This document shows positions 25,086 to 26,945 of a stretch of DNA of 64,000 nt, piece after piece. Made by a program: the position numbers and the translations under genes. The stretch is from an uncultured Desulfatitalea sp. (GTDB lineage Bacteria; Desulfobacterota; Desulfobacteria; Desulfobacterales; Desulfosarcinaceae): NCBI GenBank assembly GCA_937868765.1, contig CALMNL010000004.1:1004749-1068748 (forward strand). The letters run 5' to 3'. Within the stretch, counting starts at the first letter, position 1. Each line of letters starts with the position of its first letter. The notes under the pieces were generated by a model. The model was not told where the DNA came from. It worked only from the letters and a program-made list of their open reading frames with translations, and made no database searches.

Positions 25086-26945
25086 ATGAAATTGAAATTC
25101 GAACAGGCCGTCGGCAATGTGGCCAAGGCCATGGACGTGGACCCGGAAGAGCTCTCGTCGTTTTTCGAGAAGGGGCAGAAGGTGGCGTATGCCGCGGGCG
25201 AATGGATCTTCCACGAATCCACACCGCGGCTGTGGGCCGGCATCGTCATCGAGGGCGAAGTGGAGATCGTCTGCGGCCTGCACGGGGCGACCCGGCGCGT
25301 GGCGCTGCTGCAAGCCGGGGCCCTGATCGCCGAGAGCGCCCTGCTCGACGACCTGCCCCACGCCGCCAGTGCCGTGACCCGCCAGGGGGCCCAACTGTGG
25401 CAGATCACGCGCAAGGAGGTCGAGGCCTTCCGCAAGAAGAAACCGGCCCTGTACTACCGCATCGTGGCCCGGGTGGCTCAGAAGATCGGCGAACGGCTGC
25501 GGGATCGCGGCCGACAGTGCACCGAAGAGATCGCGGCCCTGGGCGGCTTCCGCCGGGAGCACGACTCGCTGGGCGAGCGCGAGCTGCCCAACCAGGTCTA
25601 CTACGGCGTGCAGACCGCCCGGGCCCTGGAGAATTTCCAGATCTCGGGGGTGCCGCTGCGCAACTTCGGCCACTTCATCGACGGCCTGGCCATGATCAAG
25701 AAGGCCTGCGCCATGGCCAACCACAAGCTGGGCGTGCTGCCCAAGGAGAAGATGAAGGCCGTCTGCGCGGTGTGCGACGAGATCCTGGCCGGCAAACTTC
25801 ACGACCAGTTCGTGGTGGACATGTTCCAGGGCGGGGCCGGCACCTCCACCAACATGAACGCCAACGAGGTGATCGCCAACCGCGGCCTGGAGCTGATGGG
25901 GCACGACAAGGGCGCGTACGCCCACCTGCACCCCAACGACGACGTGAACTGCTCCCAGTCCACCAACGATGTCTACCCCACGGCCATCAAGCTGGCCGTG
26001 ATCCTGTCGCTCAAAGATCTGCTGGCCGCCATGGACGAGCTCCAAAAGGCCCTGGCCGCCAAGGGCGAAGCATTCGCCGGCATTCTGAAAATGGGCCGCA
26101 CCGAGAACCAGGACGCCGTGCCCATGACCCTGGGCCAGGAGTTCACGGCCTACAGCCGCATGATCGGCAGCGCCATGGAAGCCCTCAAGCACGCGGCCGT
26201 TGAACTGCATGACGTCAACATGGGCGCCACGGCCATCGGCACCGGCATCAACAGCCCGCCGGGCTACGCCGCCAAGGTCACCAAGCTGCTGGCCCAGGTG
26301 AGCGGCCTGCCTGTCCGGCTGGCCGAGAACCTGGTGGAAGCCACCCAGGACTCGGGGGCCTTCGCCCAGATGTCGGGCACCATGAAGCGCGCCGCGGTGC
26401 AGATCTCCAAGATCTGCAACGACCTGCGCTGGCTTTCGTCCGGGCCCCGCTGCGGCCTCAACGAGATCAACCTGCCGCCCATGCAGCCGGGATCGTCGAT
26501 CATGCCGGGCAAGGTCAACCCGGTGATTCCCGAGCTGGTGAGCCAGATCTGCTTTCAGATCATTGGCTACGACGCGGTGGTCTCCATGGCCGCCGAAGCC
26601 AGCGAGCTGGAGTTGAACATGGCCGAGCCGATCATCGCCTACGACCTGCTGCACGGCATGATGATCCTCAAGAATGCCTGCATCGCCCTGACCAGCCGCT
26701 GTGTGGCCGGCATCACAGCCAACGCCGAGCGCTGCCGGCACTACGTGCAGAACAGCATCGGCCTGGTCACGGCCCTCAACCCGGTGCTGGGCTACGAAAA
26801 GTCGGCCGCCATCGCCAAGGAGGCGCTCAAGAGCGGCGGCAACGTCTACGACCTGGTGTTGCGGAAGAAGTGGCTGACCAAGGCACAGCTCGACGACCTG
26901 CTGCGGCCGGAGAACATGACCGATCCGCGGCAGATACCGAAATAG
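25086..26945 (+). CDS. aspA: Aspartate ammonia-lyase fused to an N-terminal cyclic-nucleotide-binding-like domain
   Basis: Of the 619 aa, residues about 155-619 are an ordinary AspA (fumarate from L-aspartate). The landmarks are ELPNQVYYGVQTARALENF, MFQGGAGTSTNMNANEV, the substrate-binding VNCSQSTNDVYPTAIK and the catalytic-loop signature GSSIMPGKVNPVIPE. Residues about 27-150 form a CRP/cNMP-binding beta-barrel plus helices (FFEKGQKVAYAAGEWIF, LQAGALIAESALLDD). In the phosphate-binding cassette the Glu is kept (E83), but the Arg of CRP (R82) aligns with Ala93, so the ligand may not be cAMP. AAGGAGG precedes the start. It lies between Dcu and a DAACS carrier. Confidence 0.93.
   Translation: MKLKFEQAVGNVAKAMDVDPEELSSFFEKGQKVAYAAGEWIFHESTPRLWAGIVIEGEVEIVCGLHGATRRVALLQAGALIAESALLDDLPHAASAVTRQGAQLWQITRKEVEAFRKKKPALYYRIVARVAQKIGERLRDRGRQCTEEIAALGGFRREHDSLGERELPNQVYYGVQTARALENFQISGVPLRNFGHFIDGLAMIKKACAMANHKLGVLPKEKMKAVCAVCDEILAGKLHDQFVVDMFQGGAGTSTNMNANEVIANRGLELMGHDKGAYAHLHPNDDVNCSQSTNDVYPTAIKLAVILSLKDLLAAMDELQKALAAKGEAFAGILKMGRTENQDAVPMTLGQEFTAYSRMIGSAMEALKHAAVELHDVNMGATAIGTGINSPPGYAAKVTKLLAQVSGLPVRLAENLVEATQDSGAFAQMSGTMKRAAVQISKICNDLRWLSSGPRCGLNEINLPPMQPGSSIMPGKVNPVIPELVSQICFQIIGYDAVVSMAAEASELELNMAEPIIAYDLLHGMMILKNACIALTSRCVAGITANAERCRHYVQNSIGLVTALNPVLGYEKSAAIAKEALKSGGNVYDLVLRKKWLTKAQLDDLLRPENMTDPRQIPK

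Follow-up and report, generated by a model that had tools for sequence, protein, structure and literature searches.

An aspartate ammonia-lyase fused to a cyclic-nucleotide-binding-fold domain that carries histidine in place of the cassette arginine

Fusion of a cNMP-fold sensor to an enzyme has a counterpart in the mycobacterial lysine acetyltransferase Pat (PDB 4avb, 4oll), which we take to be placed under cAMP control in this manner. For aspartase itself there is a precedent for control by a bound partner, as Schubert et al. (2021) reportedly describe an interaction of E. coli L-aspartase with GlnB. At the level of the genes, dcuA lies in an operon with aspA in E. coli, and DcuA prefers L-aspartate, which is exchanged for C4-dicarboxylates (PMC10634366). 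The window analysed here, a stretch of 64,000 nucleotides on contig C4 of the genome of an uncultured Desulfatitalea sp., contains a gene in which a sensor-fold domain is fused to an aspartase (Table 1). The fusion is real, and we consider it somewhat probable that its product is a ligand-gated aspartase, in which binding of a small anion, probably other than classically bound cAMP, would gate the enzyme.

Table 1. Position of the fused gene, its parts and its neighbours in the window.
Feature	Coordinates	Strand	Evidence
Fused gene: N-terminal CNBD-fold domain and aspartate ammonia-lyase, 619 aa	25086..26945	+	one open reading frame, full-length homologues
Ribosome-binding site AGGAGG, 5 nt before ATG 25086	25075..25080	+	read from sequence
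N-terminal CNBD-fold domain, residues 1-152	25086..25541	+	Pfam, AlphaFold2, Foldseek/VIA
Aspartase part, residues 155-615	25548..26930	+	TIGR00839, PRK12273, closest PDB sequences 6wng and 1jsw
Phosphate-binding-cassette region, residues 78-97	25317..25376	+	HMMER alignments
Glu83, cassette Glu	25332..25334	+	84/84 class-1 proteins, 6/7 other fusions
His92, at the cassette Arg position	25359..25361	+	84/84 class-1 proteins, 6/7 other fusions, 0/44 control domains
Arg48, loop before strand 50-57	25227..25229	+	Arg in 81/84 class-1 proteins, 2/44 control domains
Catalytic SS-loop GSSIMPGKVN, residues 469-478	26490..26519	+	invariant in 35-row alignment
Glu340-Asn341, where aligned aspartases mostly show Gln-Leu or His-Leu	26103..26108	+	alignments
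dcu, anaerobic C4-dicarboxylate transporter, 13 nt upstream	23738..25072	+	PF03605, E 1.3e-143
Sodium:dicarboxylate (SDF) symporter, 35 nt downstream	26981..28291	+	PF00375, E 6.6e-120
Amino-acid-type extracellular solute-binding protein	22919..23722	+	PF00497
Second amino-acid-type solute-binding protein	28314..29234	+	PF00497; frame open from 28248, start at 28314 guessed

A previous sequence-only reading had seen here an aspartase with a fused CRP-like N-terminal domain, and both halves of the single frame do match Pfam: cNMP_binding (PF00027) covers residues 33-117 (E 3.2e-12; 46.7 bits against a cut-off of 27.5), and the lyase domains are present at full length, Lyase_1 at residues 163-494 and FumaraseC_C at residues 560-612. 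The NCBIfam aspartate ammonia-lyase model PRK12273 is furthermore matched with 726.2 bits (cut-off 510). The same reading had named a separate AspA start near 25548 as a finding that would speak against it, but no in-frame ATG, GTG or TTG is found between codons 130 and 175 of the fused gene, so that such a start is ruled out and a separate AspA gene was rejected. A CRP/FNR transcription factor was likewise discarded, since the sensor domain is followed by the lyase instead of a C-terminal helix-turn-helix, and no HTH family is among the Pfam matches at E 0.01. The search for the fusion in other genomes, which had also been proposed, returned at least 84 distinct fused proteins of the window's type, here called class 1, the window's own (L005) included. 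They comprise 74 proteins from a pattern scan of an 84,980-species genome collection, in which 117 stretches encode a relative and the best 80 were kept, and 10 from whole-length searches; identical proteins were counted once, L103 was left out, and the truncated or frame-broken L078, L097 and L109 were kept in. The match starts at residue 22 or earlier in 79 of the best 80 of 117, the exception being L103. Seven more divergent fusions (L013-L016, L120, L130, L131) were compared with them.

Modelled alone with AlphaFold2 (pLDDT 88.1, pTM 0.79), residues 1-152 adopt the beta-barrel and helix fold of the cNMP-binding family, to which the domain belongs also by its Pfam score; in the PDB the model is matched best by mycobacterial CRP and GlxR, with Foldseek E from 1.6e-10, the top three reach VIA Z scores of 16.7-17.0 at 2.7-3.0 A, and cAMP-bound receptors are among the top matches. 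In this model a long C-helix (120-151) leads to the lyase, and it ends at residue 143 in the full-length model (pLDDT 84.0). With regard to the cassette, it had been stated that the phosphate-binding Glu is kept as E83, which holds for all 84 class-1 proteins, and that the key Arg is missing with Ala93 in its place. The canonical Arg is indeed absent, but the named substitution is wrong, since HMMER alignments (with the single sequence and with a 68-row profile) pair His92 with the cassette Arg of solved domains such as a Thermus CRP-family protein, and the same pairing is found in an alignment with other domains of the own and related genomes. The shift to Ala93 we take to have been caused by the cassette loop of E. 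coli CRP, which is one residue longer than that of the sensor domain. Residue 93 is variable among the class-1 proteins, the commonest residues being S (49), A (15), T (10) and G (7). Arg137, also invariant, was weighed as a stand-in for the missing Arg and dropped, given that Arg occupies this position in five of six other domains of the own genome.

A set of 44 distinct control domains was used for comparison, of which 16 are from the own genome (where 19 others matched) and 28 are high scorers of relatives. Glu is found in 36 of them at the Glu column, and in seven a His lies one column earlier, mostly in sequences of the G-Q-H-F-P-A type. Loss of the Arg alone is not rare, as 24 of the 44 are without it at that column; Glu83 and His92 however are kept and not decaying, since both are invariant in class 1 and retained in six of the seven divergent fusions, whereas the controls have His in none and Arg in 20. 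The retrieval patterns leave both positions untouched. Among the divergent fusions, L130 and L131 keep the pair with a cassette loop that is one residue longer, and L016 has neither the Glu nor the His.

With the cassette Glu present and His92 where Arg would stand, the domain was not classed as a cAMP receptor, and the replaced Arg argues against classical cAMP or cGMP binding. We regard it as unlikely, though not far-fetched, that the domain is nonetheless a conventional receptor for cAMP or cGMP, with His92 taking over from the Arg and cAMP gating the aspartase. The cAMP-bound receptors among the fold matches and the retained Glu agree with such a role, and the cyclase family PF00211 is found in 10 of the 11 fusion-carrying genomes searched, with six matches in the own genome, so that most carriers may produce cAMP or cGMP; on the other hand, the fusion-carrying Cohaesibacter (G485) has no PF00211 match, this being the one cyclase family searched, and an Arg that is replaced in 84 of 84 fused proteins is present in 20 of 44 other domains of the own and related genomes. 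The invariant His at the Arg position is all the same a reason not to dismiss a cyclic nucleotide from sequence alone.

The gene neighbourhood ties the fused enzyme to aspartate. Among the best 80 of the 117 stretches, 77 are testable in having at least 600 nt upstream, and in 45 of these a same-strand dcu is the immediate upstream gene, at a distance of up to 300 nt, its product sharing 39-89% identity with the window's Dcu. For 10 of the 32 loci without an adjacent dcu the gene upstream was inspected, and it encodes an asparaginase in one (L053), a permease of the aspartate-alanine exchanger family (Asp-Al_Ex) in another (L063) and no obvious aspartate-related protein in eight; Dcu, asparaginase and exchanger are the neighbours on which the link to aspartate is based. 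Taken together, the conservation and the aspartate-related neighbours are in keeping with direct regulation of aspartate deamination. The divergent fusions L013 and L014 have an SDF symporter, 72% identical to that of the window, on one side and a solute-binding protein (58-59%) on the other, and both kinds of gene are also found near the window's fusion. The cluster in the window is flanked by genes for a DUF2950 protein (21527-22477), a receiver-only response regulator (22519-22896) and a cysteine-rich-repeat protein (PF00839; 29248-29772), and a DUF2950 relative is also found upstream in L096, L102 and L107. Elsewhere in the own genome (L148; C4:440539-441894 and C4:443058-443315) an unfused fumarase/aspartase-like lyase lies within about 1-2 kb of a gene with a cNMP-binding domain, a proximity repeated in eight relatives (G001-G007, G032), which suggests a second link between lyase and cNMP domain, in trans.

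The sensor domain is under purifying selection, more loosely than the enzyme: dN/dS is about 0.27-0.38 for the sensor in five relatives and 0.12-0.51 for the lyase, the high value being that of L096, whose enzyme part is discussed below (NG86 estimates, with dS above 1 in several). Between the window's protein and L107 the sensor is 55% and the lyase 88% identical. A domain with a purely structural task could also be less conserved than its lyase in this way, which counts against ligand gating. Alternatively, the domain could bind no small ligand at all and serve as a scaffold, stabilising the oligomer or docking a partner such as Dcu or a signalling protein. Such a role would suit the motif E-S-T-P-R-x-W, conserved in the class-1 alignment in the loop that precedes strand 50-57, the frequent linkage to dcu, the presence of four PII-family matches in the own genome, and the reported partner control of E. 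coli aspartase. The invariant Glu and His however lie in the cassette, which is the ligand place in this fold, and adjacency to dcu is missing in 32 of 77 loci, and we therefore find a scaffold rather unlikely. The window's protein has Cys63 (25272-25274), where 74 of the 84 class-1 proteins have Arg.

In the lyase half the catalytic SS-loop and the carboxylate-site Thr, Lys and Asn are intact, T339, S470-S471, K476 and N478 being invariant in the 35-row alignment. It does however differ from aligned aspartases next to T339, and the class-1 lyases read T339-E340-N341-Q342. This T-E-N-Q is found in all 16 of the class-1 loci that whole-length searches returned from 14 genomes, a set free of retrieval bias, while the larger count of Glu340 in 83 of 84 is mostly made by the retrieval pattern ENQDAVPM, present in 79 of the 80 pattern-scan loci and the sole pattern in 51. 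All seven divergent fusions read T-Q-L-Q, and among the unfused lyases that are readable the 340 position is Gln or His except in L118 (L023 is unreadable at the active site). L118 (G444:C56) is an unfused lyase with T-E-M-Q that stands beside class 1 in the tree; it has a signal-peptide-like N-terminal stretch and is possibly an exported aspartase. E340 aligns with AspB His188, a residue in contact with the product's amine (PMC11744663), and the position, already His or Gln among aspartases, is not known as a defining one. The class-1 lyase may not be a plain aspartase, Glu340 altering its substrate or kinetics and the sensor serving another reaction. The difference between class 1 and the other lyases at this amine-contacting position would agree with this, as would the aspA equivalog TIGR00839, whose cut-off of 681.2 bits is barely passed, by 1.2 bits (682.4). 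We nevertheless judge it quite unlikely, given the intact catalytic loop and carboxylate-site residues, the retrieval pattern behind the larger Glu340 count, and the adjoining aspartate and C4-dicarboxylate genes, which speak for aspartate as the probable substrate beside a Glu340 at the amine-contacting site.

The fusion is widespread yet patchy and uneven in distribution, and the patchiness counts against a ligand-gated aspartase. The best 80 of the 117 stretches are from Thermodesulfobacteriota (43), Verrucomicrobiota (21), Myxococcota (6), Planctomycetota (3), Pseudomonadota (2) and four further phyla with one each, with one unplaced; these labels are taken from record names, and those that rest on few MAGs may reflect contamination or old names. 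Isolates of Desulfosarcina, Desulfopila, Desulfogranum, Desulfobacter, Propionivibrio, Cohaesibacter, Verrucomicrobium, Chthoniobacter and Haloferula are among them. In a sample of 97 genomes of relatives 12 carry a fusion of either kind, eight of class 1 and four divergent with about 50% identity, and within the own genus it is found in 3 of 11 genomes of that sample. A phylum sample of 395 genomes gave 13 matches at E 1e-160 (three class 1, one divergent, nine unfused), and 288 genomes of Verrucomicrobiota gave six at E 1e-150 (four class 1, two divergent). Owing to the bias of the retrieval patterns, fusions with Gln-type lyases, such as L096, may be commoner than the pattern scan shows. 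A plasmid search with the sensor alone returned just three weak matches, none spanning 80% of the sensor. In L103, from a Desulfuromonadales MAG (about 2270-2350), the fused gene lies behind dcu with most of the sensor missing, by deletion or assembly fault. This one MAG copy is all that favours an artefact, be it a sequencing error joining two genes, a chance fusion or a vestigial extension, and the 84 distinct fused proteins, some from isolates, the purifying selection on the sensor and the startless junction of the two halves make this practically impossible.

L096 seems to represent a natural swap, in which either the enzyme part was replaced beside a retained sensor or the sensor beside a retained enzyme part. 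Its sensor is closest to those of the window and near relatives (58-62%) and its Dcu neighbour is 83% identical to the window's, but its lyase half, at 62% identity to the window's (88% for L107), scores best against the unfused L017 (66%), and an AU test on quick trees rejects its grouping with class 1 (p 2.5e-4). As judged from these sequences the sensor would appear to be portable, although L096 is one MAG contig and has a small chance of being chimeric. One clade uniting every fused lyase was likewise rejected on quick trees, with L096 (AU p 2.2e-10) and without it (p 0.006), its omission having been decided after the first tree. This implies either several fusions, or replacements, or losses.

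For a ligand-gated aspartase, then, we count the single frame with its domains, the fold, the conservation of Glu83 and His92, the purifying selection, the neighbours and L096, and against it L016 without Glu and His, L103 with its sensor mostly missing, and Glu340. The enzyme would be an aspartase, converting L-aspartate to fumarate and ammonia, with a covalently attached sensor, which most likely binds a small anionic ligand unlike classical cAMP receptors, because it offers Glu83 and an invariant His92 and not Glu and Arg. Ligand binding would shift the C-helix, and this shift would in turn alter, in one direction or the other, the activity of the presumed tetramer; the enzyme and Dcu, its partner in the operon, would then jointly set the share of imported aspartate that is turned into fumarate and ammonia. 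As a more tentative extension, possible but not probable, the His-type cassette (Glu83, His92 and perhaps Arg48) may define a ligand class of this fold that responds to a metabolite or to a second messenger different from cAMP and cGMP, in a directly ligand-gated fusion that passed as a unit from one aspartase lineage to another and, with Dcu, sets aspartate/fumarate exchange in several phyla.

A small molecule may thus exert direct control over aspartate breakdown, with a fusion that is shared by several bacterial phyla. A built-in sensor would be a simpler switch than a separate GlnB where nitrogen supply and fumarate branch apart, and would act in sulphate-reducing as well as other environmental bacteria. 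A testable departure from the textbook cyclic-nucleotide pocket is furthermore offered by the invariant His, the natural swap L096 offers a ready comparison for biochemistry, and a ligand, if found, may point to that of other His-type domains. No paper on such a fusion or such a pocket was found in open-access full text, and domain databases may well show the architecture.

Compared with described systems, the locus resembles the E. coli dcuA-aspA operon and DcuA/AspA of Actinobacillus succinogenes in the linkage of transporter and aspartase genes, but for those systems the accessible part of PMC10634366 mentions no sensor fusion. The protein is like E. coli AspA (1jsw), 6wng and TIGR00839 in its whole lyase part, including the SS-loop GSSxMPxKxN and the best PDB sequence matches, and unlike AspA in its extra 152-residue sensor and in Glu340-Asn341 instead of Gln-Leu or His-Leu. 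The sensor shares fold, cassette Glu and C-helix with CNBDs of the CRP/GlxR type (PF00027; 4cyd, 4a2u), from which it differs by an invariant His for the cassette Arg, by a DNA-binding domain that was not found and by the attached enzyme. The reported interaction of E. coli aspartase with GlnB takes place in trans, unlike control by a fused sensor. Pat, finally, differs in its enzyme and in its canonical cAMP ligand, and its sensor is weakly similar in sequence to that of the window's protein (E 0.24-1).
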